A stretch of 64,000 bases of DNA, taken from assembly GCF_026151205.1 (NCBI RefSeq), contig NC_087076.1:14183675-14247674 (forward strand), in the 5' to 3' direction. The notes below the pieces were generated by a model, which worked only from the letters and a program-made list of their open reading frames with translations, was not told the DNA's origin and searched no databases. Below are positions 7,382 to 54,300 of this stretch, piece by piece (the first letter of the stretch is position 1; each line of letters opens with the position of its first letter). The DNA is from Bolinopsis microptera. Taxonomy: Eukaryota > Ctenophora > Tentaculata > Lobata > Bolinopsidae. A program made the translations under genes and the position numbers.

Positions 7382-9448
7382 TCAAAGGTTATCCATATCG
7401 AGAATACCGTTGAAAAGTACATGGATCTTTCTTTGAACATTCTGAAGGGTGGAATTAAAAACTGCATTCCATTCAGGTGCTTCTCTCACTTTCAACTGTT
7501 TTCTCATAAGTCTTAAGAGCTCCTTAACAAGACTGATGTTTCCATACTTAATCAGGTCGGTGATATATTCATCAACCTTATCAGCATCAACTTGAAACGG
7601 CTCAGGACTTTCGCACCAGTTTTTAATGATATTTTTCACGTCTGCAGGGTTCTTGTGACCAAGAAACTCAGGGACAGGGCATTGGAAGGTTTTGCAGACT
7701 GGAACATTCTTCTGCTTCACAGATTTTTTACTCACATTCGTAGTGTTTGATATTACAGGGCTGGCTTCTTTGAGTTTGCTCATTTGCACACCAACTCCAC
7801 GGAGATCCTCAGGATTCAAAGTCATGCTGTTAACAAGAGACATAACTTTGGAGTGAATAACCTTCCCACTATTTGTAGCGTTTGCTATATTGACAGACTT
7901 ACTAACATTGTCACATATTCCATGCCCCATATATTTAATTGGTTCGACCGCAGCATTTTCAGACCTTTCTTTCATTTTCAAAGTAACCAAAGAGCCGACA
8001 ACGTTTTCATTCTTCATCCGTTTTTCTAATTCGTCACACAAATTAAGCAAAAATGTTTCAAATTGTTTGATTGTTTCTAGTCTTATTCCGTAGTTTATCT
8101 CAACTGAAATACTTTTTCTTTCATGCTTCAAAACAAGATCCCTAGAATCTCTTCCTCTACAGTAATTGTATACCGTTTCACCAGTTTTTGGACCCAGCAG
8201 CTCAGACAACTCTGACTTTGTCTTGGTCAAGAGGTCCCCACAAAGTTTGTAAGACTTTGATTCCAACTTGTGGAATGTTGAGCTTCCGATACCCGGGAGA
8301 TCTTGAAGAGGCTGTGATTTAATATAATCTAAAACAGAGCTCTCAGAATAACATAAGTATTGTCCGTTTGGTTTCCCTGCCCTGGTAGCCATTCTGGCGA
8401 CTAATTTATTTGGACCAATACCTGCAGATACAGTACAACTAATAGCTGAATGTATTTCAGTTCGCAATTCTTGAACCCAGCCTTTTATTGCAGCTTCATC
8501 AGTAACATCAACAAGCTCTACAATATCTACAAATGCTTCATCGCAACTAACAACTTCAACATAAGGTGTCTTTTCAACAAGAATTCGGTATAGCTCATTG
8601 CTAGCTTTGTGATAAGCATCAAATTCGTAGGGAACTGCAATTATATTGGGACAAAGCTTAAGAGCTTTTCCAAGGAACATCCCATTTTTGACACCAAATT
8701 CTCTTGCTTCATAACTGCAACTGGATATCTCTGCATATGAATCTGAATTTTCATTAGGCTTAGCATGGGTAACACAGACAGGTTTTCCCCTTAAATGAAG
8801 CCTTGTTCGAAGTGAGATTGAAACAAAGAAACAATCAATATCAATGTGCAGTATAACTGAAGAAGTCTGCGATTTATTTATGGGAATATATGAGGGATGG
8901 TATTGGTTTTGAAGCTTGGAAACTTTTTGTCTTAATTCAGAAACCGATGTTGACAAATGATGAAGGCGAGAGTTGCTGTAAAACTCGCCAACAAAGTCAT
9001 GACTGGTGGTTTCTGGTATGATTTTTGATGCATTCTTAATAGGATATACTTCAACTCTTGATGTCATCATGTCTCTGATATTTTCAGAAGTTCTATACAA
9101 TATATACTTAGCTTCGGATAACCTTGATTGAGCAGCATCACAATCAACTATCCATTGAGGAGTCACAATCATATCATTTTTCCACAGCTTTACTTTAAAA
9201 TCGGGCAGATTAGAAGCAATTATGTGAGTCACATGCGTTTTGCTGAAAAACATTGTCACACTACCACCATTTCGTAACACTATCTCTTTCAGGACAGATG
9301 ATGGGGGATTGGTGAAGCCTGTTATGTAAATTGAAACACCTTTAAATATATTGGAAATCCTTCCAGTGTCAAGCAAAAATTTTTGATTTGAGTTCTGATC
9401 ACCCTCTTTCTGCTTCTTCAAGTCCATATAGTCATTGAAGCTTCCCAT
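7382..9448 (-). CDS. REV1: REV1 DNA repair deoxycytidyl transferase (Y-family polymerase)
   Basis: Translesion polymerase and scaffold for polymerase zeta and other Y-family enzymes, acting in the nucleus. The single open frame from ATG 9448 gives 688 residues. In order: BRCT domain about 34-118 (THIIASNLP, WIVDCD); the conserved FYSNSRLHHLS segment at 157-167; Y-family core with metal ligands in HIDIDCFF (D203) and SCDEAFVD (D303, E304); little finger; and a C-terminal domain about 600-688 resembling the REV7/polymerase-binding REV1 CT domain. Human REV1 is about 1250 residues; here the linker between BRCT and core is very short, and I see no clear ubiquitin-binding LPxxI motif. A possible acceptor (AG at 9480-9481) upstream of the ATG suggests an additional 5' exon. 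It lies head-to-tail with the NDR gene, 283 bases apart, same strand. Confidence 0.93.
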   Translation of the reverse strand: MGSFNDYMDLKKQKEGDQNSNQKFLLDTGRISNIFKGVSIYITGFTNPPSSVLKEIVLRNGGSVTMFFSKTHVTHIIASNLPDFKVKLWKNDMIVTPQWIVDCDAAQSRLSEAKYILYRTSENIRDMMTSRVEVYPIKNASKIIPETTSHDFVGEFYSNSRLHHLSTSVSELRQKVSKLQNQYHPSYIPINKSQTSSVILHIDIDCFFVSISLRTRLHLRGKPVCVTHAKPNENSDSYAEISSCSYEAREFGVKNGMFLGKALKLCPNIIAVPYEFDAYHKASNELYRILVEKTPYVEVVSCDEAFVDIVELVDVTDEAAIKGWVQELRTEIHSAISCTVSAGIGPNKLVARMATRAGKPNGQYLCYSESSVLDYIKSQPLQDLPGIGSSTFHKLESKSYKLCGDLLTKTKSELSELLGPKTGETVYNYCRGRDSRDLVLKHERKSISVEINYGIRLETIKQFETFLLNLCDELEKRMKNENVVGSLVTLKMKERSENAAVEPIKYMGHGICDNVSKSVNIANATNSGKVIHSKVMSLVNSMTLNPEDLRGVGVQMSKLKEASPVISNTTNVSKKSVKQKNVPVCKTFQCPVPEFLGHKNPADVKNIIKNWCESPEPFQVDADKVDEYITDLIKYGNISLVKELLRLMRKQLKVREAPEWNAVFNSTLQNVQRKIHVLFNGILDMDNL

Positions 9449-9496
9449 AATATTGCTGTGCTGGTAAGCGAATTTGAACCTAAAGCAGAATTTCAA

Positions 9497-11957: not shown

Positions 11958-12659
11958 AAATTATACTGGACATGATCAGATGACGAATTATCTTAAGCAG
12001 CAGTTAGTCACTTTATACCTCCACTTAGAACTTGATTAGTCATGAACAATAGAATCATCAAAAACCAATACAACAAAACATCTTGATCAATAAATGCCTG
12101 GCAGCACCAGCAACCAGACATCGGCCGTGTACCTTTTTCGACTCAACAGAGTCCCTGATGGACTTTTGTTTAATTTTTAAAATAATTGGACCAACCTTTC
12201 TTTCTCGAAATGTATCCTACAGTACTTCATTATAATATTAAGATAAAGCAAATGTGAAGATATTACTACGAAATAGATTTATACCAAATTGTTCATGATA
12301 TTAATTAACCATGTTGATGGTTTTAGATTTTGTATGTTGTAAGTATTTTAATGTGAAGCGTTTACTCCTCCCCTCAGCAAGACAGTTAGATTAATGATAA
12401 TAATTTTCAAATGACGTAGTATATTATATAACAGTTAATAATTAATATATGGATAAAAATATTCAATGTTGTACTAGAGCGTATTCTAGACCAGGGGTCC
12501 ACAGGGGTCCGGAAAAGCCGTACTTGGGTCTTTATCCTTGTCACTAGTCTTAATTGGATTCAGTTTACACAAAACATGAACATTTACAACTTAGACGTAC
12601 ACATTGACAGCTTAAAAAGTATAAAATAATACGTGAGTGTGCGGCTTGGGCCGCGCCGC
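11958..12659. other. Noncoding region upstream of the AlkB-SGNH LINE
   Basis: No coding signal. A GGGGTCC-rich segment at about 12486-12545 recurs, diverged and in the same orientation, at about 18545-18605, on the far side of the LINE. An in-frame TAA at 12627-12629 precedes the LINE's first ORF. Confidence 0.4.
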
Positions 12660-14273
12660 ATGCAACACCTGCTAACCAATGAACATGGTTTGAAAGACCA
12701 TCAAAACCGAGTCAAAAACATAGAAGACCATTGTAAAGGAGAACTAAGTGAAGATGTAAGTGGTGTCAAAAAGGCTATTAAAGACCTTCAGAAACAAATC
12801 ACAGATCTTTCCACCAAAGGTCTTGTCTCATCTACTGCTCCCAAGCTTGACACTGAGAAATTGATACATGATATCATAGACCAGCTTGATGAACATACTC
12901 GGCAGGAACCGCATATTTCTCTTGAACTGAAGGGAATCAAGCAGTCTCTAGACCAACTATCTTCCCAACAGACGACAATTCCTCATGATCAGCCATCATC
13001 TGGTTCTGCATTAAATGATAAGCACCTTCTATCAAAGACCACCTTTAAACATGAGGAAAAACCTGTGGTAGACACCGTGGAAGAATTCATCGACAGTGAT
13101 GCTGAATCAGACCTTCTCCAATACTGCGAATCTCTTCAGTTCAGTCAGGAGAATGGGCATTCAGTATGTTCTTTTGGAGAGAAGTACAAGTATAGCGGAT
13201 CCAGAGATGAGAATAAGAAAACCGTGGAGATCCCTGATAAAATTGCTGCACTTGTCCTGAAAATCAATGAGGAGTTCTGTGCAGAAGGAAACCCTGTAAT
13301 GAATAGCGTGTTGATCAACCGCTATGAAGAAGGCGAGGGTTATCTGCCTGAACATTCAGACAATGAACCGGTGATACATCCAGAGTCTAGCATATTGACT
13401 CTTTCCATTGGAGGTGAATGCAAAGTCCTCTTTACTGAAATGAACAACCCAGTTCACACGCACAAGTGTACTCCAAGATCAGTTTACAGGATGACCAGAA
13501 GGAGTCAGGCTCACTACAAGCACTCTATCCAGAAGGGGTCAGTCACTGGTGCAGTACGATATAGTTTCACCTTCAGATCAATAGATGGAAAGAATCGTGC
13601 CAGTACTTGTATCTTCTCTGATTCAAATGGAGCAGGTATGAAATTTGGAGAGGATCACAAAAGGAGCTTTGGTAAGTGGCTGCCTGGTCGGAATGTTTGG
13701 ACTCCTACAATAGATGACATTAACCCATATCTTGCATGTGGATACAAGAACATTGTTATTATGTGTGGTATAAATGATGTTAGAAGACCATCTGTTAAAT
13801 CTCAGCGTGAAATTTTTGCTATATTTAGTCATCTAGAATTCAAGATTGAGCAAATTCAAGAGGCCAATCCAACTGCCCAAGTATTTCTTTGTCCTCTTTT
13901 ACCAACTCGAAATGCTGATTTAAATAGGAAAGTTCTTTACTTTATAGAACTTATTCGTCGTGAGCTACTCCCCAAAAACTTTGGTGTCCAGTTCGTTGAT
14001 GGCTTTGATGACTTCCTTGACAATAACACTGGCTTACTTTGCCTAACCTTGTCCAGGGAGTTTGACAGATATGGCCGAACGGATTACCTGCACCTTAATT
14101 GGAAGGGAGTGGCCAAACTTGCTACTTTAATCCGTAATACTGTCCTTGTTAGGATGCATGGAGGGACTGATAGGAGGAAGAGGGGGAGGAGGGACGGTAA
14201 GGTTGGTTCAACACTTTATTCTCATGCCGCCGGAGGACAGCCTCATGTTGAAGGCTATCAGCCTCCAGCATGA
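12660..14273 (+). CDS. LINE ORF1: coiled coil, AlkB-like 2OG-Fe(II) dioxygenase and SGNH esterase domains
   Basis: 537 residues from ATG 12660. Residues ~1-120 are charged and helix-prone, as in LINE ORF1 coiled coils. Residues ~165-310 form an AlkB-type dioxygenase: the substrate/cofactor loop LINRYEEGEGY, iron ligands H232-x-D234 (EHSDNE) and H288 (YKHSI), and the 2-oxoglutarate arginines R300 and R306 in RYSFTFR. Residues ~315-500 form an SGNH/GDSL hydrolase: nucleophile S322 in FSDSNGAG, N372 in CGINDV, and D475-x-x-H478 in DYLHLNWKG. AlkB enzymes oxidatively remove alkyl groups from nucleic acids; esterase domains occur in CR1-type ORF1 proteins. All catalytic residues of both enzymes are present, which argues for selection. 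The role in transposition is unknown; repair or demethylation of the element's RNA or cDNA is an inference. The stop overlaps the next start (ATGA). Confidence 0.88.
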   Translation: MQHLLTNEHGLKDHQNRVKNIEDHCKGELSEDVSGVKKAIKDLQKQITDLSTKGLVSSTAPKLDTEKLIHDIIDQLDEHTRQEPHISLELKGIKQSLDQLSSQQTTIPHDQPSSGSALNDKHLLSKTTFKHEEKPVVDTVEEFIDSDAESDLLQYCESLQFSQENGHSVCSFGEKYKYSGSRDENKKTVEIPDKIAALVLKINEEFCAEGNPVMNSVLINRYEEGEGYLPEHSDNEPVIHPESSILTLSIGGECKVLFTEMNNPVHTHKCTPRSVYRMTRRSQAHYKHSIQKGSVTGAVRYSFTFRSIDGKNRASTCIFSDSNGAGMKFGEDHKRSFGKWLPGRNVWTPTIDDINPYLACGYKNIVIMCGINDVRRPSVKSQREIFAIFSHLEFKIEQIQEANPTAQVFLCPLLPTRNADLNRKVLYFIELIRRELLPKNFGVQFVDGFDDFLDNNTGLLCLTLSREFDRYGRTDYLHLNWKGVAKLATLIRNTVLVRMHGGTDRRKRGRRDGKVGSTLYSHAAGGQPHVEGYQPPA

Positions 14274-14596
14274 ATGTTCTTAAAAAAGAGGTCTGTGCCC
14301 ACTGTCTAAAAAGTATTTACTTAGGTCAATCTATAATTGAATGCTACCACTGTAATTGTCCCATTCACTCTAGATGTTTTAACACCAGTGACAAACAAAA
14401 TAAAAAAGTTGACTTGTACTGCAATAATTGTATCCACCTAGCAGTAAACCGTTATAACCCATTTAAGCTTCTGAATGATGACAATGATGACAACACTGAT
14501 GCAGATGATGTAATACGTAAAATCTCTGAGGTACTTGAAAGCTGTGACTCATATTCTGTAAAAGACATAAACCGCACCTTTGCTAACAAACTTTGA
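14270..14596 (+). CDS. LINE ORF2 N-terminal part: PHD-type zinc finger (frame broken at 3' end)
   Basis: ATG at 14270 overlaps the ORF1 stop as ATGA, the arrangement of termination-reinitiation. The 108 residues contain a C4HC3 pattern: CAHC, then ECYHC, PIHSRC and LYCNNC, i.e. a PHD-like finger, followed by an acidic linker. The frame stops at TGA 14594-14596 just where the endonuclease begins in another frame. In related elements this finger is continuous with the endonuclease, so this is the N-terminus of ORF2 separated by a frameshift. Confidence 0.8.
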   Translation: MNVLKKEVCAHCLKSIYLGQSIIECYHCNCPIHSRCFNTSDKQNKKVDLYCNNCIHLAVNRYNPFKLLNDDNDDNTDADDVIRKISEVLESCDSYSVKDINRTFANKL

Positions 14597-17500
14597 CTCG
14601 CTGGCAATTGAAATAGCTAGGTTTACTAACAAATTCTCTGTAATTGGTCTTGCTGAAACGAATGTAGGCCCTGAAATGAAAAACTTGTACGAACTCACAG
14701 GCTATGAGAGCTTCTATCAAGATACCTTCGACTGGAAAGTAAAAGGCTCAGGAGTAGCTCTATATGTCCTGAACTCCTTCAATGCTGTCAAAAATAACAA
14801 CCTTTCACAAGTAACAGAAAATCTAGAAACCCTCTTTGTAACTATAGGTAGTCTAGGAAATTCTACTTCTATAGGAGTAATATACCGCCCTCCAAGTGGC
14901 AATGCTGAGCAAGCTCTCCAAGAACTGTCGTCAATACTTGATAAAGCACCAAAACATACACACATTGCAGGTGATTTTAACATTAATCTCCATGATAGTA
15001 ACCACAGTAGCATTATTGCACAGTATGAAGATGTCCTATTTAGTAGAGGCTTCTTTCCATTGATATCATTAGCAACTCATGAAAAGCCTGGATGTAATGC
15101 CTCGTGCATCGACAACATCATTACAAATGACCTAGACTCTGTTACTGCCTCTGGAGTCATAACTGATCACATATCTCATCACCTCCCTATATTTACAATA
15201 TTTGACTGGGAAATTAGCAAGACCAAAAATATTCATAAGCACACTCAATATTATGACTATTGTAAATCAAACACTGATAAATTTGCTGAAGTCTTGGGTA
15301 ACAAACTAGACAATGAACCAATTATAGATTTTACTAACTTTCATGATATCTTTAAAAACAGCATTGACGAAACCTGCAAACTAGCTGTACCCAAAACCAC
15401 TAAGCGCACTATCCAGAACAACCCATGGATTACTGGCGGGATTATAGCCTCAGTAAACCACTGCCATGGGCTGTATGATGACTGGGCGAAAGTCAGGAAA
15501 GTTAAGTGTAAACAAGGCGAAACTGACACAAAAGGGGGCACATGCCTGTGTTCTATCTGCTGTAATAAAAGAAACCGTTATGATGACTACAAAGAATATA
15601 GAAAGGCTCTAAAAAAGGTTCGTAAAAAAGCTGTATCTGAATATTATTCTGACAAGTTTCTTGAAACTCAGGGAAATTCCAAGAAAACCTGGGAACTGAT
15701 AAATAAAATTCGTGGCAAACAGAAACGTGATATCAGACCTATATTTACCATAGACAATGAAAAGATAACTGATCGCAGAGTTATAGCTAATGAATTCAAT
15801 AAGTATTTTGTATCCCTAGCATCTAACCTTAATGCAGCCTACACAGAACTAGGAGAGATACAAATAAATCAGCTTCCAAGTTTCTGTGACTTCTTACCTA
15901 AATCGAATACAGCTAATATATATCTACATGACTGCTCACCTGAGGAGGTGGCTAAGATCATATCGGAACTTAAGAATGGCAAGGCTAGCGACATACCAGT
16001 ACATATAGTAAAGGCAGTATCAGGCAAAATTAGCCCACTACTATCGGTATTGTACAACGAATGTATGCAACAGGGATTTTTTCCAGACGACCTAAAAGTA
16101 GGTAAAATAAGTCCAATATATAAGAAAGAAAATGCTGAGCTTCTTGAAAATTACAGGCCTATCTCAACCTTAGCGATATTCGGTAAAATACTTGAAAAAA
16201 TCATATTCTCCAGGCTTTACAGTTTCTTTCAGTCGCAAGGATTATTATATGAAAATCAATATGGCTTTAGAAAAAATCACTCGACAAGCCATGCACTCAA
16301 CTTCTCTGTCGACTACATTGAAAAATCTTTAAGAGATAAAAATCACGTACTAGGCATCTTCATTGATTTAAGTAAAGCTTTTGACACAATCTGTCATGAT
16401 AAACTGCTTAAAAAACTGAATGATTATGGAATTCGAGGGACTGCAAATAAATTGATAGCCAGTTACCTTTCTAATAGACAGCAATATGTTTCAGTACTTG
16501 GAGAAGAATCCGAAAAACTGTCTGTAATATTTGGTGTTCCTCAGGGGTCAGTATTAGGTCCCTTGCTTTTCATTATCTACATCAATGAAATATACAGAGT
16601 ATCAGACCTAGGTAAGTTTATACTTTTTGCCGATGACACCAACATATTTGTTGTAGATAAATGTATAAAAACACTTTACTGCAAAGCTAATAAAATTCTT
16701 AAACTTGTTCATCAGTATATGAAGAGTAACTTGCTGCATATCAACATAAAGAAATGTTGTTATATCCACTTTAAGCCGAACTGTAGAAATGAACCAGATT
16801 CAAACACCAATGAATTAGAACTGACACTAAATAATATAGTAATTAAAAAGGTGGAGGAAACTAAGTTTCTTGGAGTCATTATTGACCAAAAACTGAACTG
16901 GGATGCTCACTTAAGAGCGTTAAACCGTAAATTGAAATGTGAGATAGGTAGACTATGTGGAATTAGACGCTGTGTACCTAAAAAACTATATAAGGACCTG
17001 TACCACACCCTTTTTGAATCACACCTATGTTATGGAATATCTGTTTGGGGAGGTGTATCAAATAATAAACTAGAAGCCATATTTAAAACACAAAAGAAAT
17101 GCATAAGAATTCTCTTTGGTGATAATGATGCATACTTCAATAAGTTCAAAACATGTGCCAGAGTAAGGCCTATCACTAGGGATAAGACCGGTAAAGTTAT
17201 CAAGCAGATGTTAGGCAAAGATTTCTTTGAACTAGAACACAGTAAACCAATCTGTAACGAGTATAACTTCCTGACTGTCCACAATCTTCATAAGTTGCAC
17301 TGTTTACTGGAAATGTTTAAAATTAATAAGTTCCAATCACCAGTCTCAATGTTCTCTTTATTCAACAGGTCACCAAGACGAGACAACTACTTCATCCCAC
17401 CCACTCCATCCTCACTATTCATCTATCAATCAACTAGTATTTGGAATCACTGCCGTAAGTCAACAAGTGAAATAGACTTCTCCACTCCCATCAGTATATT

Positions 17501-17603
17501 CAAGAATAATCTTAAGAAATCTTTGTTAGAACTACAATCTAAATATGACCGACAACTTTGGTGCAGTTACAACTTTGATGCAAATGAATTATCATTGAAA
17601 TAG
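14580..17603 (+). CDS. LINE ORF2: APE-type endonuclease and reverse transcriptase
   Basis: About 1007 residues, open from a TTG codon (no nearby ATG) to TAG at 17601-17603; it should be the continuation of the PHD-finger frame after a +1 shift. Endonuclease motifs: GLAETNV (metal-binding Glu), VIYRPPSG, AGDFNINL, CIDNII and the ITDHISHHLP His/Asp block. The expected N-terminal HLNxRSL strand is missing, which suggests a small deletion caused the shift. RT motifs: ENYRPIS, QYGFRKNHST, GIFIDLSKAFDT, GVPQGSVLGPLLF, LFADDTN and VIIDQKLNW, then a thumb/C-terminal domain. Together these nick target DNA and copy the element's RNA. No RNase H follows. Confidence 0.9.
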   Translation: MLTNFDSLAIEIARFTNKFSVIGLAETNVGPEMKNLYELTGYESFYQDTFDWKVKGSGVALYVLNSFNAVKNNNLSQVTENLETLFVTIGSLGNSTSIGVIYRPPSGNAEQALQELSSILDKAPKHTHIAGDFNINLHDSNHSSIIAQYEDVLFSRGFFPLISLATHEKPGCNASCIDNIITNDLDSVTASGVITDHISHHLPIFTIFDWEISKTKNIHKHTQYYDYCKSNTDKFAEVLGNKLDNEPIIDFTNFHDIFKNSIDETCKLAVPKTTKRTIQNNPWITGGIIASVNHCHGLYDDWAKVRKVKCKQGETDTKGGTCLCSICCNKRNRYDDYKEYRKALKKVRKKAVSEYYSDKFLETQGNSKKTWELINKIRGKQKRDIRPIFTIDNEKITDRRVIANEFNKYFVSLASNLNAAYTELGEIQINQLPSFCDFLPKSNTANIYLHDCSPEEVAKIISELKNGKASDIPVHIVKAVSGKISPLLSVLYNECMQQGFFPDDLKVGKISPIYKKENAELLENYRPISTLAIFGKILEKIIFSRLYSFFQSQGLLYENQYGFRKNHSTSHALNFSVDYIEKSLRDKNHVLGIFIDLSKAFDTICHDKLLKKLNDYGIRGTANKLIASYLSNRQQYVSVLGEESEKLSVIFGVPQGSVLGPLLFIIYINEIYRVSDLGKFILFADDTNIFVVDKCIKTLYCKANKILKLVHQYMKSNLLHINIKKCCYIHFKPNCRNEPDSNTNELELTLNNIVIKKVEETKFLGVIIDQKLNWDAHLRALNRKLKCEIGRLCGIRRCVPKKLYKDLYHTLFESHLCYGISVWGGVSNNKLEAIFKTQKKCIRILFGDNDAYFNKFKTCARVRPITRDKTGKVIKQMLGKDFFELEHSKPICNEYNFLTVHNLHKLHCLLEMFKINKFQSPVSMFSLFNRSPRRDNYFIPPTPSSLFIYQSTSIWNHCRKSTSEIDFSTPISIFKNNLKKSLLELQSKYDRQLWCSYNFDANELSLK

Positions 17604-20600
17604 GTTGATTTAGTAAACATAATCATATGAGTAAACCACGGTGTTATTGCAAAAAACCATGACAAGGGTATCAGACCTATATTAATCTAAGAGACGACAC
17701 AAAACGAATCATCATACAACAAATTTTAAAATCCTGCGGCACAGGATCCTGTTGTTTTCCTACTCTACCTCTCCCAAACCCCTCTCTCCTTCTCCTCTCT
17801 TCAGGTTTATTCTTCAATTTAAAAAAAAAATTAGATAGCAGATATATTTTCTTTTAAATGAAGTAATGGCATTATACATTGTTTGTTATCGTATGTATGT
17901 TGTGTATAGTGTTTGCTGACTGGGTATATGCTATATATTTTGGGGCTCACGACGTCTCGTCCCATGGGTGGAGTTGTAGGCTGAGTATGTGTTCAAATCT
18001 CCTTACTTCGTATGGTGAAACATTGAAAGGTTTGCCTTAGCCTTTGGGACGAGTGTTTGCCCACCGGGGATCCAAATATATGATTATCATGGACATTACT
18101 TTGACACATAAACTAATCAAACGACTTTAATGATTCCAGAAAATTTTACTAACTGCATTTAGCTAGTTTATAGTAAATACACACGATCGCAGAATAGAGG
18201 AGCACAATTGGGTTCCTTGTTCTGCGACTGTGTTTCCTCGGTGGGCCGACAGGTTTTTGTTGTGTAGTAGTGCTGGGGAAAAAAACGCTTTAACTATCAA
18301 TGAGAGTACAAATTTTTAATTCTTGACCTTAGTGCCACAGTTTCTGTGGTAAAAACAAATTTATAGTTAAACGTTATATATTGTAGAAGGGCATGATTTA
18401 CTCACATCACTAAGCATCTGGATGGATAATTAGCACACAAAGATAAACTGACCTTTAAACATGACCACCAGCTATACCACGTAACCATAGCTCCGAAATA
18501 AATAAATTGCTCTACATAGAAACATCTGGCCTGATCCTATCACATTGTGGTCCCCAGGGGTTCGGTAAAGCCCTTACAGGCAACTGGGTCCTTTTACCAG
18601 CCACAATAAAATTGATCATGCCAGTACTGTCATAAACTGTAACCAACCATTTAAAAATTAGATATCTTTTGCTAAATTTTAAATTTTAAGTCATAGAGCA
18701 ATCTTCTCAATTTTAAAATTTTTAAGAATTATATTTTACCCTAACTATGATGTGGTGGCATTTCATACTTAACTAAATTTCAACTTTGAAAGTAAATAGA
18801 TTATTAGTGACAACAAAATTATAGTTTAAGACATCCATTCTGCATTGTGTTTCCAATATTAGAATTTATGATATGTATTGATTGAATAATTGGTAATAAA
18901 TTTAACTTTTGTTTTATTAAAAACTTTTGTTTTATTAATTTATTTGGAGGACTTCGCCGATTCGACGCGCCGCGCGAACTAGCATTCTTGCTTTGCATCG
19001 TCAATCGTCGATCTTTGCTCTGCTTCGCAGAGCAACGATCTCGATGGGTTGACATCGTCAACCAAGAATTTATGCGCCCAGGGGCTGAAGTACGCTTGTT
19101 TATAAATTAATGAAATGTTGCATTGTAAATATTATTATATAATATTAAATAAATAGTAAATATTATTATATTATAAATAGTAAATATTATCACAATGCTG
19201 GCAAGCATTACCGTCGCCCTTATATTCACAATACTATTTACCCCCTATACTATTATATCCCCTTTATTGTTTTCCAGGCATTAAGACTTTTTCGAAAGTA
19301 GTTCAGCAGATACATTTAAGTTCAAAACATTCTAATTCAATGTTAAAGATGACAGGAATAAGAAATAGTTATATGGAGGTTTTTAAGAAATTTGCGCAAA
19401 ATACGCGCCAGCATGTTATACGAAATTAGGTAAAAAACCCAAAATCGCCATATTCAGGTGCCTTAAAAACCATGTTAAAATTGAGTTAGAGATCTGAAAC
19501 TTTGCAGGGCGTCTAGACCTTGTCCAAGTCGACAGTAAAAAAAATTTCATGTTTCAGGAGTATCGGGAAGTGGGTTTTCTGGAACCCCTGTTTTACAACA
19601 GATTGTCGTGAAGTATAGTATAGTGGTATAGACGCTTTTTGCAGTCAATTGTAGCCTACATTTAAGTGTCCGTAGATTCAAAAGTATAAAAGATACAGTC
19701 ATTTAGAACCACAGGTTTTAAAGATAATCGTTTATACTTTAGTTTACTTTATATTAAAAAATAATTTATCATCATCATCATCACTTGATGACGTCATCAA
19801 TTTAAGTGTTTTTAAAACTTGATTTTTGACAAAACAACAACTTTTCAAATCGATTTTACACCATTAAAGAGTAATTTTACTCAAAATCTGAGGACATTTT
19901 CATCTTAGATAATTGTTCAAGCATTCTAAAAATCTACCGGAAAAGTTTCCTACCTTACTCCTTCATAAAGATATTTGCTATTGAAGTTAGTGCTTTTTTG
20001 AAGAATAATTTTATAAAAACACAAAAGTTGTGAATTAGTATTCTCTGGTGTTGGGCCATCTGCATCCCTTGGGTTGTGGAGCTCAATTTTGCTTCTTAAA
20101 GGTGTAAATTGTGTTATAGGCTAGTTTTAAAGTTAAAAATCGAAAAGTTGCACACGTGGGGACACGCCCAAATTGATTTAAAATAGCTAAAATCACTAAA
20201 AATTTTGATTTTCACGATTTTTATCAACTTTGGAGTCCCGTTGTGATCCAAGTTCTTTTTGAAATCTTCTGAAACTTTGCATGCTTATCAAACTATATAT
20301 TAAATACCACTATGCAAAAATTTACGGTGATTCAATATTGTATGCGCACGCAACGTCCGCTCAAAGTTTGCACGTGCGAAAGGTGAGAATTTTGCTCATT
20401 CGTGATTTCGAATATATTCTGCTTTCCACGATATTTAAATGGCATTATATATGAATTTAATGCCAACTTGAATGAGTAAAAAGTGCCATATTCAGTCGGT
20501 TATCGACAGATATACCTAACTAAACACAAGGAAACGTTTTCAAAGGCAAAATTTCGAAATCGTCGAAATTACCTCCTTGTTAATGAAGTTTCGACTAGCT

Positions 20601-45329: not shown

Positions 45330-48300
45330 TTAATCTGATTCAATGTCCGAGTCAAACTCCCACACCTATAAGAGAGAGATAACGATTAAATAAGGCGTGG
45401 TTTCTCTTATTCATTTATCAGCCCTACCTGCACGTCAGCAGGAGTTCGAGAAGTAAGATAAACAAAAATAGAAAAACTTAAACGTATTAAAAATTATAGT
45501 AAAAACCAAATATCATATTTCATGTTATCTTTTCATGTTATCTTTCATGTTATGTAATCTACCCAGAAATTTGGGAGGAGCAAGCAATATATTGATACGT
45601 ACATCATCAAAGTTGGTATTCTCGAGCATGTCAGCCAGTCCTGATACTTTTTCTAGATAATTAGCGTCGTTGAAAGCCTCCATCAGGAACCCCATTTTAT
45701 TTTCACGGTATCTGGAGATTATCTGAAATTATATAAATTGTAACCCTCTCCACAACAACCCCTCCCACGCGTTTCTCCGTCCGTGATAACGTTCCATGTA
45801 GTACACTTATAGTAGACAACAGTGACCGGTATATCAGAAAAATAATAATAATACCAGGAAGAAAATTAATAAATATCACGGGGGAAGCTTTGTTCGTGAC
45901 GGCAACACTATTAAAGTAATTATCCGATAAAAGATAAGAGTTGATATATGTTCACCTCCATGCAGCAGGCGGTGCACTTGTCGAATGCGTGAGAGGCAGG
46001 CTGAACAGAAGAAAAGTGTGCCAGAAAACCCCTAATTTGGTGTGGCACTCTGCCCAAACAACTGTCTTGCTTCTCGTCGTTTAGATCTAGAGTCGCTGGA
46101 GCCTGTCCCTAATTTATCAGTATGTTAGTATATCCTAACAGTGCAATATCATTTGTCGCAAATCAGAATAATCAGAAACTATTTGGAAAACCCAAAAACT
46201 GTCTATGTTAGTATACAGTACACAAATTTGGCGCTCCCAATTTTAAAGTTTCAGGGCGAAAAAATTAGAATTATCGAATCTTTAATTCCATATTCTCCTG
46301 GTAACATTGTTATTTGGTAATGTTGACATTGAAATGAGACAAAAATGAATTTTATCCAACCTCGAGTGGATGCTGGAGAATAGAGACCATGAGTTCAACA
46401 GCCAGCGAGGCTGCCACGAAAGCGTTTCCGGGTCGGGTCACAGTGCACATCTGATCCAAGGTCCTGTCTTTAGTGGACTGAGGATAAATATTATAACACA
46501 TTATTATAGGTGTTTAAAATAGCAATTACATATGACTTTTGTTCTATTATTGTTTTTGTATGATTTTTTATATAATTACTGTTAAGAGTTTGCTATTATC
46601 GCCTTGATGCGACAAAGGGAAACACTAGCTCTTTTAAATAAAGCCTCTGTTTTTCTTTGTCGCAACAATGTAATAATAAGAAATTCTGAGCAGTAATCAT
46701 TACAAATGCGAATCATCAGTCATATTTCTATCCGGTAACTTCATTGTTTTTAAAGATTAATGTTAAAAATCTGAATATTAATAGAACAATTGCTCTGTGA
46801 TTTGTGAACTATTACAGCTCTCATCTCGTGGAATTACGCTGTCGTTAAAAAGTATCAGTCAAGTTGGGAGCCAGATATGGTGCTTTATTGATATTTGAAA
46901 TTCTGTGGAACATTACCTAGTAAGTACTTGATAAACCGAGCTTCAAGTTAATCTATCAGAAATTAAGGAACAAATAAAAACCATTAGAAAACAAAACAAA
47001 AGAAATTAAATCTATTCTTATCATTTTATGTTAACATCAGTAATGCTATTTTGTATGTTAAATATTTCCTCTCGAAGGTAGTTACCATAATTATAGGCTC
47101 CATTAGTAAACTAACCGAGCTTCAAGTTAGTTTAATCTATCAAAATTTAAGGAACAAGTAACATTTAAAAACTATTCGATTCGATTACAAATGAATCAGA
47201 TATGAAATATTCCCACGTTATCAAATACAGTTTACTGCTAACAAAAATGCATTTATGTCACTTCGTGTCCAATATCTCAATCCAGGACTTTGGGTTGAAC
47301 ATTCCAAAACTCAAGCAGTACAACATTTCCTCAGGAGTTGTTCTCCTGCTCGAGTTCAGTGTTGAACTTGCTAACAATGATAGTCATGGGTAGAGCCAAC
47401 ATGACAACACCTAGACAAAGAACCACCGAGCCCACCAACTTTCCCACAAGTGTCACCGGATACATGTCTCCAAACCCCACTGTTGTGATTGACACCAGCA
47501 CCCACCAGCAGGACATGGGGATGGAGGAGAACTGGGAACTGGGACCTGAACCATCGGGATCGTGATGACTTTCAACGTTTTCAAGGTAGTACATTATCGA
47601 GCCAAATGTGATGACGAAGAGAAACATAGCTATAAAGAGTATGACGAGTTCTTGTCGAGCTTTTCCCATTGCTCTCATGATTCCTACAAGACCCTGTGAG
47701 TGACGCAGAAACTTGAAAACTCTCACCACACGCACTAGCTTCAACGCACGGAGAATAGCGTAATTGCCATCATCTGCGTTTGATGTGAACGCCCATTGGA
47801 CCATCTCTATGTAAAACGGAAGCACAGATATTACGTCCAGTAAGTTCATGATACTTTTCCAGTAGTCGGTAAACTTTGGCCAGGTTACCATTCTTAGGAA
47901 TGAATCTACGGTGAACCAGAGGATTGTCATCGCATTCAGCGAAAGGAGGCATAAGTTGATTTTTGAGTCACTCACCTTTGATAAATCAAATTTGTCTTCA
48001 AGAGAATCCTCTGACTCCAAGAGAAACAATATTGTTCCCACAACGATCATTACAATGTCCGTCACGTGGTAAATAGATGCCAAACCCCTCTTTGGAGGGT
48101 TGACCAGAAATTTGTGGATCGCCATTTTCGTGGCCGCACAGCAAAGATTGGAACCGTCCTTTGTGATGCTCTCCTCAATCTCGATGACCGTGTCTTGTGG
48201 TTTATACAGACCGTAGAATACCTTTTCTGCCTCGTAAATCTCGAGGTCAATGAATGGCGGAGGGCATTCTACCCCAGTTTGATAAAACTGAAGGATTGAC

Positions 48301-51300
48301 TCAAAACACGACATGTGCCTGTCAAGGTAGAAAGCATCTAGTTGCTGAGAATACAGGGCTTGCCGCTCCTCCGGATTTGCGAGTAACGAGTCAGGGAACC
48401 GACTCAATGTTTCTTCTGTTGTTACATACTGTAAACCTGAGCAGTTTATGTATATGAGGTTACTATCCGGTGCTTTTCCGTCTATTGTGAGTAGATCCTG
48501 CTCTATCTTGTTCCTCAACAATTTCTCAGGTTTATCAAGCAATTCTGGAGACATATTATTAGATATAATTGCACTGGCTGGAGACATCTTTGAGACATTC
48601 ATACTGACTGGAGACATCCTAGAGACATGCATACTGGGTGGAGACATCCTGGAGACATTCCTACTGGCTGGAGACATCCTAGCGTAATTTATATCAGCTA
48701 TAGTCATAGACCGCTCAAAGTTTTTGAGAATGCTTTTTCTTTGTAAGGGAGATAAGCCATTCACTTTGGCATCGGCGTTGGGGCTTTGTAATGGACTATA
48801 CCGTCCCTTTTTCAATTTGTTAATGTAATCAGCCCTTCTTTCACTTTCCACAGGGGTAGCAGCACCTCTACTTTTCGAGCCAGCAGGACTAGAATGTAGC
48901 ATTGAGTTTAGATGCATTATTGATAATACTATGTCTAACCCAGAAAGAAAGTGTACCGAGGTTCAAAACGATGATCTTTGTGACAAAGAGCCAAGAGGAA
49001 ATTACTATGGTAAACTGAGCTTACTAATTTCCTTAAATATTGCTTTCCATCAATAATATCAATCGGGAAATATCGATAAATTGATAAATGCAGAAATAAA
49101 AGGAACATGGAAGAGCATGGACGTTTTAATAATCACTTTAAAGATAATTAATTAAATCTTGACTTGATTATTGGTTGAGTCCAGTGAACACAATCGCTTT
49201 GATTAGAAAGTTTGGAAATCAAATTAACTTTATTGACATACACGGAGATAATGAGAAGTCAATGGATAGATAAGAAGTATTTTATCTAGAAGATCGTAGT
49301 TCATTGCTTCTGAAGTAGCTATCAGTTCGCCGGTCAATGTTGGGTACAATACTCTTGTGATAAGTAGCAAGAACCAATTGCATTCTAGAAGACAAGGAAA
49401 TTTAATCCTTAAAATAAAAAGATATCAAGTAAATATACCAGTTACTTAAAACTATAGTATAATAGTTTTAAGTCACTGGTATATTTACTTGATATCTTTT
49501 TATTTTAAATATTTTAAAAACCAAGAAGAACATTTGGGCAGGTAGCCCTGGTCGGTACTCTCTCCGATAGAGCCTGCTTATCTATTGTACCGTGAAGCTT
49601 AATTTATAATTTCTACAGGGACAATGCCGGAACATGTTTAGTGTTAACTTATCTTAATCTACTTAATTAATTAACCCCCTCGTACCATACCCAACACCCC
49701 TCGTACCATACCCAACACCCCTCGTACCATACCCAACACCCCTCGTACCATACCGGTACCCAACACCCCTCGTAGTCATACCCCAGATCGTACATTCTTG
49801 AATAATGTAATAATCTTAATGCCCTATAAAATTATTATTGCTATAATTGATTTAAATACAAATTTGTTGTTTCCTCGAAATCTGTTGTCTCCTAGAAAAG
49901 TGAACATTATAGGACTGTAACAACCACTCAGTGAATTATAACTTACGTCTCCAGGAGCTACAACGTCATTACAAAAGTAGCACCCAAGCTGGGAGCCAGC
50001 TATAGTGCTAGCACCAATATGAGGGGCTTCCAGCACCTCGCACTCCCCCTTAACACCGTGCCTCATCACCAGGTAAGTATCGAACCCAAGTGCACTGTTT
50101 ATACAGATCTGGGGGAGAAAATACCGACTGAGTTTCATAACCAGTCGACAATTATAACGGGCGACAATTCCAAACTTAACATTGTGTAATATGCTGAAAT
50201 TTCATTTCTTATCATTATTATTCTTGTTTTCTGGAAAAGGTTTTTTCCCAAAAAACCTTGTGTTTGGAAGAGCAGATAAGAGTAGGGAGCCAGCGTGATT
50301 CCCGGGTATCAGTTAGCAAGAACACCACATCCACCGAGTCAATCAGCTCCTCTAACTCAGTTATACTCTCCTTCACCTTCTCCTCTTCTGACACAAGATC
50401 AACAGTTAATTGGGGGTATCGTCAGCCAGAGATAAATCATAACCCATTCCATCGGTTCTATCAGCTTAAAAGAGATTAAAGAGCTTATATTTTGAGACTA
50501 TTACCTAATTTGGTGACAGGATGACCGGGCATGGGGATTGACAAGGCAACCCCGCGGGACTCAGCGCTAGGGTTTATCTGTTTTATCCGCGCTGCAGCAG
50601 TCTCCGCTTTTGGTTTACCGCAATCATCAAAGTTGAAGAGGCTCTGCCTGACAGGGTTACTGTACGAGACCTTACCGTTATCTAGCATAGTTATATTCTT
50701 TACTCCCCAGCCCTGGAGATTAGAAAAGAAGAGGTTAGCAAAATTAGGGCATTTTATATGTTTTACAGTAAACATTTATAAAGAATTAATTTTTTTCTTG
50801 AGTAAATTTTATCGCATTAATGACTGTATCACATTACAAATCACAATTTAATTGTTGTTGTCGATCTGGGAGGTGTCGGCGGTTCTAATGACCATTTACA
50901 AAAATATAATAATAACATAATATAATTACATAAAAATTCTTAATTCTTGATACTAAATACCTGTAAGCTGCAAATTGTAGGACACGTACTTATAAATCAA
51001 CAAATTGTCTCCAAATATCACAAAAAACATAAGATCGGAAAAAAAGCAACGAAAAGTTGGCGAACATACCAGTAAGCACCGTGCCATTTGTATAGTAAAC
51101 ATTTATATAGAATTTATTTATTTTTGAATCAATTTTCCAGAATTAATGACTGTATCACATTACAAATCACAATTTAATTGTTGTTGTTGATCTGGGAGGT
51201 GCCGCGGCGGTTGTAATGACCATTTACAAAAATATAATAATAACATAATATAATTACATAAAAATCCTTAATTCTTGATACTAAATACCTGTAAGCTGCA

Positions 51301-54300
51301 AATTGTAGGACACGTACTTATAAATCAACAAATTTTCTCCAAATATCACAAAAAACATAAGATCGAAAAAAGAAGTAACGAAAAGTTGACGAACATACCA
51401 GTAAGCACCGTGCCACATTGCACCCGAGAGTGCCACTACCCAGCACCAGCACTTTCAGCTTCTGCAACACCTCCAGATTCAGCTCAGGGAGAAGTCTCCA
51501 GCGCATCAGTTTCAAGTTCAGATTAACTGATGATTCGGAGATCCTGCCGGAGGAAATTTTGATGGTGTTTTATATCAAATAAAAAAATCTCTGCTGAGAT
51601 CAGATGTTTTATTAGTGTTCCTTGTGTAAGAAGGTCTACTTGTGGTTCCACAATCTATCTTACTATTCTATCCTTGCCGAACTCTACCATTGCAATAATT
51701 ACTCCAGTTTAACTAAAGACGTTCAGCGTCATACGTTTTCATTGGCGGCACCAAGCCTTGTTAAACAAAGCAACTATGTATCTAATACTTGCCTGATGAA
51801 GTTAGGGGCATAATTGGTCATAATGTCATAATTTACCTATATTATAGTACATAGTATCTTTTCCCTGCATTTTCATACATAAAGTTTCCTTTGACTAACG
51901 AGTTTAGGAATGGGGAGGGGCGACATCAGAGTAATTTATCTAACGTATCGATAACTGCATTTAACTATCTAGGGACTTAAGTTTAAGAAATGTTGTGGAA
52001 CTTTTCAAACCCAGAGATTTGGAACAAGCGGCGAGTGATTACTATTATATATCTTAGTGAATTAAAAGTTAAACAATCCTGATTCAATTTTAATGGTTTT
52101 ATCCATCTTAAATATTATGGCAGAGTAGGGTTATTATTAAAAACAGCACTCCATGCTATCTATCTTGATGCGATCTTATTACAATATGCTGCTTACTAAC
52201 TGTGATATTATGGCAAATAATTCCATGAGTTCTAATCTTGCCTCATCGGTTAAGTGTCACGTAAACGAGGAGGAGCTATATGAAAATTATTTAAAATTAA
52301 CTTCTCGGACATAGCCGTTTGATGTCAGTCAATGAGCCGCGGTATGTTACTATATAATACATATCATGGTTATCTGTTTGTTAGCTAAGTTTCCAAAGTC
52401 ACTTAAATATGTATTGTATATTATTTGTCTTTCACGAAATATATTTGTTTGCAACACCAGGAGGCCTGGTCAGTGGTCACTTTAATCTTATTGAGTACAC
52501 TACTTTTGTACTTTATCTAAGACTGAGACATGTCTCATGTCCTGTTCCCTCATTTTTCTGAAAAATTTGGAGCAGGAGTGTACATTGTGGACAACGACAA
52601 CCCCACATGTGAGGAGTCATACCACCTAGGAATCAACTCAACCGTCTTCCAGGCCGAAACCTTTGCCGTAGGCACTGCGGCAAAAATATTACGGGAATCT
52701 GGGACCAAAACTAGGAAAATAATCATAAACTGCGATAGCCAGGCGACAATAATGGCAATGAGCAACATCAAAGTCAAATCTAAAAGCACCAGCACGGCTA
52801 TAAGTGAGCTTAACCAAATAGCAATGGACAATCAAGTCCTACTACGATGGATACCAGCTCACAAAGGCTACGATGGCAACGAAAAGGCAGACTCTCTTGC
52901 CAAAAAAGGCTCCGACAATCTGGACTCCGTTCAAGTGCAACTACCAATACCAAAAGTATTATGGAAGGGAGCACTGCGGAGTATAAGTCATCGGAAGATG
53001 AGGGAAAGATGGAGAACTTTACCCAACACTCACTTTAAACGAGTATGGGGACAAAAGTTCGCCAGATCAATCCCGAAACTTGGCAAAGAGAGCACAAGAA
53101 CAGCAACACAATTCCTCACGGGACATTGTGAATTAAACTATCACATCAATAAGTACAAGCCGACAACTGTCCCTAAAACCTGTCCACACTGTCTCATGGA
53201 AGAGGAGACAATGAACCACTTTATTGGTCAGTGCCCGAAATGGTCTTACCAGCGAGGAGGATACTTTGACTCCTTCTACCTCAGTGTGACAGATATAGTG
53301 GACAAGTTCTCATTACCAAGGATCATCGGCTTTATACAAGCAACAAAACGTTTTACCAAATGTGGAGAGGACAAGGCTTAACCTTGCTTTCTGCACAGAT
53401 TAACTTTACCGGGGTAAGCACAGGGCTTCAATGCTCTATCTTATAGTGGTTTTGATCTATTCCTTAGTAGTAAAGACCACTGCCCCCTACGAAGAAGAAG
53501 ATCTTATTACAATATGCTGCTTATTAACTGTGATATTATGGCAAATAATTCCATGAGTTCTAATCTTGCCTCATCGGTTAAGTGTCACGTAAACGAGGAG
53601 GAGCTATATGAAAATTATTTAAAATTAACTTCTCGGACATAGCCGTTTGATGTCAGTCAATGAGCCGCGGTATGTTACTATATAATACATATCATGGTTA
53701 TCTGTTTGTTAGCTAAGTTTCCAAAGTCACTTAAATATGTATTGTATATTATTTGTCTTTCACGAAATATATTTGTTTGCAACACCAGGAGGCCTGGTCA
53801 GTGGTCACTTTAATCTTATTGAGTACACTACTTTTGTACTTTATCTAAGACTGAGACATGTCTCATGTCCTGTTCCCTCATTTTTCTGTCCGAATCGCAC
53901 CTGATAGTCATTAACTCCCCCCCCCCCCCCTTCTTTATTATGTACAGCCACAGCTGTTTTCAAGAATCTGACCATTAGCCAATGTTTGGTGCTGTGCTCA
54001 GTAACTACTTTGTAGTCCTCTTTTTGATCAACGTTTTTTAAATTGAAAAAGTGAAACTGGAACTCATTGCTCCAGCCAGTTTGGAACACTTTTAAAAATC
54101 TGAACTAATCTTTTTCGCTTAATAATTACTAGCTACTCTTCGGAAGCTTAAGGTTCCGCGGATATGTGCTCCATGGTGTTTAACTAAAGGGTGCGCCTTA
54201 GCAATGACCTGTACGACTTCGCATGTAACCGTCCGCCGACCCGGCTGAGGGGCGAGCAACGTCTGACAAGCAATGACACATCCATTATGACCAGGTTTTA

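Follow-up and report, generated by a model that had tools for sequence, protein, structure and literature searches.

Long interspersed nuclear elements (LINEs) of the CR1/L2 kind whose first open reading frame (ORF1) is of type IV (esterase) or type III (PHD), such as zebrafish ZfL2-1, are described in the available parts of two studies (PMC3905857, PMC4120745) as having a coiled coil and an SGNH esterase with Ser, Asn, Asp and His catalytic residues, a PHD-like finger at the N-terminal end of ORF1 and close to the start of ORF2, and an apurinic endonuclease (APE) and reverse transcriptase (RT) in ORF2. The second of these, a survey of Jockey-superfamily ORF1s, reports ORF1s of the esterase kind from two subgroups of vertebrate elements and no others, and its available text does not mention "AlkB" (PMC4120745). 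A LINE with the same features lies in a 64,000-nucleotide stretch of the genome of the ctenophore Bolinopsis microptera (assembly GCF_026151205.1, contig NC_087076.1, positions 14,183,675 to 14,247,674 of the forward strand; this whole stretch is called the window below), and it differs from the described type III and IV ORF1s in that an AlkB-family dioxygenase stands between the coiled coil and the esterase. The domain order of the full-length ORF1 protein (ORF1p) of this family is PHD-like finger, coiled coil, ALKBH2/3-like dioxygenase and SGNH esterase; we regard this architecture and the purifying selection on it as nearly certain, the folds themselves being predicted ones.

Domains, copies and relatives of the ORF1 protein

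The ORF1 frame in the window (Table 1) runs uninterrupted for 537 codons to its stop, and an earlier note on this DNA, made from its letters, had read it as a LINE ORF1 that fuses an AlkB-type dioxygenase with an SGNH esterase behind a coiled coil. This reading is borne out by Pfam, by a confident AlphaFold model and by structure matches, which support AlkB and SGNH folds in the two segments for which they had been proposed. In the corresponding profile search, 2OG-FeII_Oxy_2 matches residues 172–306 over its cut-off (E = 7.8e-15, 56 bits; cut-off 31.2), whereas Lipase_GDSL_2 is found at residues 356–483 but falls under its own (E = 5.7e-6, 27.4 bits; cut-off 32.9). No NCBIfam model matches above cut-off, and the bacterial AlkB equivalog TIGR00568 reaches 14.8 bits where more than 231 are required. 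Residue comparisons here and below use an alignment of 265 rows, made up of the window protein and 264 clusters listed from three protein searches, two of which contributed their best 120 of 251 and best 120 of 154 matches. Block I of the SGNH domain, SDSN in the window copy, has G at its first position in 261 of the 265 rows, and the conserved G338 and G343 are candidates for the block II oxyanion glycine. The PHD-like finger at the N-terminus of full-length relatives scores just under the Pfam cut-offs (23.4 versus 24 bits for PF00628 in P0003 and 27.1 versus 30.6 bits for PHD_4 in P0155), and the A1 profile matches the PHD chains of CXXC1, DIDO1 and BPTF with E values of 0.004–0.02, similar to those of unrelated coiled-coil matches.

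Although the frame is open as had been described, position 12660 is not the true start of ORF1. Homology between the window copy and 19 other loci begins no earlier than 12659–12661, so the window copy is 5′-truncated and its apparent start codon is partly flanking DNA; both frames are open in three of the 20 loci compared, with an ORF1 of 709–716 aa followed by an ORF2 of 1133–1135 aa. Relative to other copies, 53 bp are absent from the window ORF2 after ~14584, and since this deletion breaks ORF2 the copy is dead. The 3′ limit of homology falls at 18937–18945 in 11 of 20 loci. Among the six copies with both ends, four are 6.92–6.94 kb long and the others 5.7 kb and 7.7 kb, and no convincing target-site duplication was seen at these six or at the window copy. 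The first ~40 bases of the 5′ untranslated region (UTR) occur in two versions among otherwise similar copies, one in L025, L027 and L030 and the other in L021, L023, L034 and others.

The overlap of the ORF1 and ORF2 frames recurs in other copies. Pfam identifies an RT in ORF2 (PF00078, RVT_1, 5e-36) and, under the respective cut-offs, an endonuclease (PF14529, 2.2e-5, only just under; PF03372, 0.003), with no match to RNase H, and LINE-1 ORF2p is a match among solved structures in the PDB (E = 1e-21). The endonuclease and RT in ORF2, together with the common 3′ end and variable 5′ truncation of the genome copies, are those of an APE-type LINE, and the coiled coil and the SGNH domain with its S, N, D and H those of an esterase-type (IV) ORF1. 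The 16-base units in which the element ends are arranged in tandem. Ends of this kind, in short tandem repeats rather than poly(A), are linked to the CR1/L2 lineage, and the best reading of the window element is a young, APE-type, CR1/L2-like LINE.

We searched the genome (264.65 Mb in 232 contigs) with the window protein and scored 81 of 948 candidates. Both domains are spanned (from residue ≤130 to ≥480) by 71 of these 81 matches and 75 have no internal stop; by identity they fall into groups of about 92–100%, 74% (one match) and 44–52%. The same fusion is present in proteins of Mnemiopsis leidyi and on many further contigs. An artefact of gene models or assembly, or a host AlkB gene that happens to lie beside a LINE, would have to explain these recurrent uninterrupted frames and fusions, and the host genes, recognized by sequence match, are found elsewhere (ALKBH2 at L051, E = 3.6e-60; ALKBH3 at L052, 1.2e-39; an ALKBH3-like gene at L053, 2.6e-27); the probability of such an explanation is negligible. 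A host gene or chance open reading frame (ORF) was likewise rejected on the number of copies, their conservation and the selection on them.

Relatives that lack AlkB, a point the earlier note had raised, cannot be judged absent from the protein searches because the queries contained AlkB. A separate search with ORF2, in which 45 of 7,442 candidates were scored, is free of this bias: among 35 places where the beginning of ORF2 is preserved, 27 are preceded on the same strand, at a distance of no more than 2.5 kb, by an AlkB-SGNH ORF1 match. ORF2 is shortened at four of the remaining eight, and the other four have frames of 1132–1150 aa and no upstream match among the 81 scored ORF1 candidates.

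The organisms named among the relatives listed are B. microptera, M. leidyi and two bacterial bins of metagenome-assembled genomes (MAGs). The latter relatives (P0207 and P0214, in MAGs of Moritella sp. and Saccharospirillaceae) lie on contigs of 2–3 kb and are probably misbinned eukaryotic DNA. Bacterial and archaeal genomes gave two weak matches among 55 pattern matches (28%, query residues 461–586, Bacteroidales MAGs). As to a viral origin of the AlkB domain, viral structures match it well, for example a Picornavirales sp. protein with 29% identity over 150 columns, but 104 pattern matches in viral contigs yielded no relative of the complete ORF1.

Table 1. Positions of the LINE copy, its parts and other frames in the window
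Feature	Position	Strand	Basis
LINE copy, 5′-truncated	12659..18938	+	Limits of the similarity shared with other copies
ORF1 remainder, C-terminal 537 aa (P0001)	12660..14273	+	Open frame
Coiled-coil region, residues ~1–104	12660..12971	+	Lower-confidence model helices 8–52, 65–81, 83–102
AlkB/2-oxoglutarate (2OG)-Fe(II) dioxygenase, residues 131–309	13050..13586	+	Pfam, AlphaFold model, structure matches; H232, D234, E236, H288, R300, R306
SGNH esterase, residues 313–499	13596..14156	+	Pfam, model, structure matches; S322, N372, D475, H478
ORF2 start, Cys-rich PHD-like finger	14270..14593	+	ATGA overlap with ORF1 stop; Pfam PHD E = 0.015, under cut-off
ORF2, APE-type endonuclease and RT	14580..17603	+	Pfam, PDB match
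Junction of 53-bp deletion breaking ORF2	14584..14585	+	Comparison with other copies
3′ UTR ending in two 16-base units, no poly(A)	17604..18938	+	Comparison of copy ends
REV1-like translesion polymerase frame, 704 aa, intronless there	7382..9496	-	BRCT, IMS polymerase and REV1 C-terminal domains
Second LINE frame, 1,330 aa	20905..24897	-	Endonuclease, RT and RNase H
Voltage-gated potassium-channel-like frame	47331..48917	-	BTB_2 and Ion_trans
Frame probably from a fragment of another retroelement	52530..53381	+	RNase H domain

Conservation, selection and exchange of domains

The nine catalytic residues singled out in the earlier note (H232, D234, H288, R300 and R306 of the AlkB domain and S322, N372, D475 and H478 of the SGNH domain) were correctly picked, and all nine are kept in 252 of the 256 rows that cover all nine sites. 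Taken singly in the rows that cover them, they are conserved in 263/263, 263/263, 264/264, 264/265 and 265/265 rows for the AlkB residues and in 265/265, 264/264, 255/258 and 259/259 rows for the SGNH residues, respectively, and E236 is likewise invariant (263/263). In the 245 rows used for column statistics the median conservation is 51%, and a conservation of at least 99% is confined to 24 of the 316 well-filled columns; eight of the nine catalytic residues are among these, and D475 stands at 98.8%. The AlkB domain could instead be mainly an RNA-binding or structural module, or a protein modifier, in which catalysis is secondary: demethylase activity is a prediction from sequence, and ALKBH relatives with other substrates exist. 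However, the five residues for Fe and 2OG are kept in 255 of the 256 fully covered rows despite a mean p-distance of 0.565 in the AlkB domain (245 rows), and we consider a role of this sort improbable, the most so of the three alternatives for its function that are weighed in this and the last section.

The ratios of nonsynonymous to synonymous change (dN/dS, omega) for the two enzyme domains, from a comparison by domain suggested earlier, are far below 1 and the AlkB domain is not neutral. By the NG86 method, omega among open copies with countable dS is 0.06–0.26 for AlkB, where the value of 0.26 rests on four changes, and 0.05–0.20 for SGNH (pairs with saturated dS are excluded from these ranges). 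Maximum-likelihood (ML) codon models for four partly overlapping sets of 8, 4, 3 and 7 copies gave, in that order, 0.135, 0.234, 0.179 and 0.115 for AlkB; 0.087, 0.058, 0.110 and 0.065 for SGNH; 0.245, 0.624, 0.272 and 0.197 for the coil; and 0.213, 0.322, 0.455 and 0.151 for the N-terminal part. Both enzyme domains are under purifying selection.

The two domains have also for the most part been inherited together. Their pairwise distances are correlated (r = 0.77 in 245 of the 265 rows), and none of 500 shuffles gave so high a value. Purely vertical co-inheritance was nonetheless rejected, since L045 and L046 are about 1–6% apart near both ends and ~25% apart in the middle when scanned in windows, and L041 and L043 match at the N-terminus but not in SGNH. 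The ORF1s of L025 and L027 are mosaic as well, parts of the cassette differing sharply in divergence from their flanks. Cassette parts are swapped between families, and from their sequences these three pairs look as if they arose in this way.

Other AlkB layouts in the genome

AlkB is not unique to the window family in this genome, so that the AlkB-bearing LINE of the earlier note stands as to its architecture but is not the only one of its kind, nor does the reading from the truncated copy include the PHD-like finger of the full-length protein. A search with PF13532, in which 150 of 587 candidates were scored, gave at least 151 matches in frames of many sizes, those listed being all over the cut-off; these counts are lower bounds, because the window's own family is absent among the matches listed. 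Ten such places were fetched for reading, three of them the host genes at L051, L052 and L053. AlkB is followed by GDSL-like sequence at L054, L056, L057, L058 and L059 (a Pfam match under the cut-off in the first four, and a GDSN motif recognized by eye in L059). At L060, AlkB, here closest to ALKBH3 (8e-15), is followed by a long stretch whose examined portion contains no GDSL match. Reading on downstream of L054, L056 and L060 (for the last with ~0.7 kb between pieces left unread) showed a LINE endonuclease frame in each case: PF03372 at L054 (1.5e-6), PF03372 under its cut-off at L056 (7e-5) and PF14529 at L060 (7.4e-8).

The domain order can also be reversed. A GDSL family search, for which 150 of 424 candidates were scored and compared with the PF13532 matches listed, placed GDSL 0.7–1.3 kb upstream of AlkB in at least eight frames, some of 2,200–3,400 aa, and 91 bases downstream of it in at least four. 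In one frame of the reversed kind (L064, G000:C10:13247300-13249600), GDSL at residues 59–227 (1e-8, over the cut-off) is joined by a Pro/Ala-rich linker to AlkB at 565–697 (4e-22), and L055 is of the same kind by its AlkB domain and linker. In a tree of 37 AlkB domains, with three host sequences and no viral rows, the AlkB-SGNH elements and L055 split from the host enzymes and L060 (support 99/97); the branches are long, and the placement of L060 and L055 may for that reason be wrong.

Other LINE families of this genome, too, carry AlkB domains. Repeated uptake of AlkB by LINEs is made more probable by the reversed domain order and by the second, ALKBH3-like type at L060, and a wider proposal can be put forward tentatively, as a possibility that falls short of being likely: on more than one occasion the LINEs of this ctenophore may have acquired ALKBH2/3-like demethylases, arranged in three or more layouts (AlkB-SGNH; SGNH-linker-AlkB, a putative LINE; and AlkB-coiled coil), as a standard part of the particle that is traded between families by recombination, and this eraser may have evolved against methylation that blocks RT, possibly a defence imposed by the host.

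Proposed function and comparison with described systems

According to the available part of PMC7968990, modified bases of the m1A (1-methyladenosine) type stop reverse transcription and treatment with AlkB relieves the block. The most likely of several mechanisms for the window family is that the AlkB domain of ORF1p, as an Fe(II)/2-oxoglutarate demethylase, acts in cis on the RNA or cDNA of the element, a proposal to which we would give about even weight for and against. In outline, oligomers of ORF1p would coat the RNA of the element, with the esterase and the PHD-like finger helping to position the particle at membranes or on chromatin. AlkB would strip Watson–Crick-face methyl groups (m1A or 3-methylcytidine, m3C), set by the host or arising as damage, from the template RNA or from single-stranded cDNA while it is being made. 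An ORF1p on the template RNA would be a natural site for such an eraser, and as marks of the m1A/m3C type block reverse transcription, taking them off would help copies to reach full length. Membrane targeting has been proposed for the esterase of ZfL2-1 ORF1p, which binds acidic phospholipids (PMC3905857, in the part available); a membrane role of the esterase here is assumed by analogy.

The AlkB domain might alternatively erase N6-methyladenosine (m6A) in RNA or N6-methyladenine (6mA) in DNA and so counter silencing by the host, be it epitranscriptomic or at the level of chromatin. In a profile search of solved structures ALKBH2 and ALKBH3 rank first for the window family, and ALKBH5 is absent among the best 60 of 142 matches. 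In addition, D135 of E. coli AlkB lies near N6 of the m1A base and the change D135I is needed to open that enzyme to m6A (PMC7968990, available part), and the invariant E236 of the window family matches D135 in spacing. No passage on substrate residues turned up in the available part of the review PMC11431407. The profile ranking and E236 together lead us to expect m1A/m3C rather than m6A, and an m6A or 6mA eraser is lowered to an unlikely reading. A slightly less probable one is that the domain works on DNA rather than RNA, either where the element integrates or on newly made cDNA, in the way that ALKBH2 acts on m1A/m3C in DNA. The window family has its best sequence match in ALKBH2, ALKBH2-DNA structures are among the best fold matches of the AlkB domain, and a PHD-like finger would fit a step bound to chromatin.

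Several points weigh against demethylation of the element's own RNA or cDNA by a conserved ORF1 enzyme. Invariant catalytic residues do not name a substrate; the acidic residue four positions after the first His is, as a sequence feature, a hint at most; and relatives of ALKBH2 could act on DNA. Omega is higher for AlkB than for SGNH in all four ML sets, that is, AlkB is constrained but less so than the esterase, and because some sets contain mosaic copies, omega from a single tree is disturbed. Finally, esterase LINEs without AlkB may exist in this genome, since many GDSL frames of ~455–523 aa have no AlkB among the PF13532 matches listed; 13 of 25 GDSL rows lacked an AlkB partner when compared with 14 AlkB rows. 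In one such 478-aa frame (L065, G000:C2:13101900-13103400) HxDxE, H and R.....R are recognizable by eye ahead of GDSL, where PF13532 is silent at E = 0.05 and PF03171 matches under its cut-off (0.002).

If the cis-acting demethylase is active, this would be, within the literature searched, the first LINE known to carry a nucleic-acid methylation eraser. One could then test whether retrotransposition in animals is limited by methylated bases in the template RNA, and the presence of accessory enzymes in ORF1 would become easier to understand. AlkB, a bench reagent for clearing methyl groups so that RT can read through, is here apparently built into the packaging protein of a reverse-transcribing element, and the many frames above point to a mobilome rich in AlkB in an animal phylum that branched off early. 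In accord with the earlier note's expectation, no description of this architecture, or of any LINE with AlkB, was found among the papers listed from the open-access literature; bioRxiv, Repbase Reports and the majority of subscription journals lie outside that search, and an earlier Repbase entry is possible.

The nearest precedent is a Ty3/gypsy element of Phalaenopsis orchids, which like the window LINE is a retrotransposon encoding an AlkB-family dioxygenase (2-ODD); as described in the available part of PMC9289625 it differs in being a recent, ~25 kbp element of the long terminal repeat type whose enzyme, with ALKBH5-like m6A activity, is encoded by a separate extra ORF. In the window LINE, in contrast, AlkB is fused into ORF1, ALKBH2/3-like and diverse in sequence. 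To our knowledge, the AlkB-bearing replicases of plant RNA viruses have neither RT nor esterase. These viruses (Flexiviridae and others) resemble the window LINE as RNA-based replicators with an AlkB of their own, for which repair of the RNA genome has been proposed in a paper whose available text does not contain "retro" or "transpos" (PMC544882). Their AlkB is fused to a replicase, whereas that of the LINE is part of a packaging protein. Cellular ALKBH2 and ALKBH3 have the fold, the HxD...H...R.....R set and the acidic +4 residue in common with the window AlkB, but are stand-alone enzymes with ~18–21% identity to it in structural alignments. Relative to all of these, what is new here is the addition of a conserved ALKBH2/3-like dioxygenase to a LINE ORF1 of the esterase/PHD type, and such fusions abound in this ctenophore genome.
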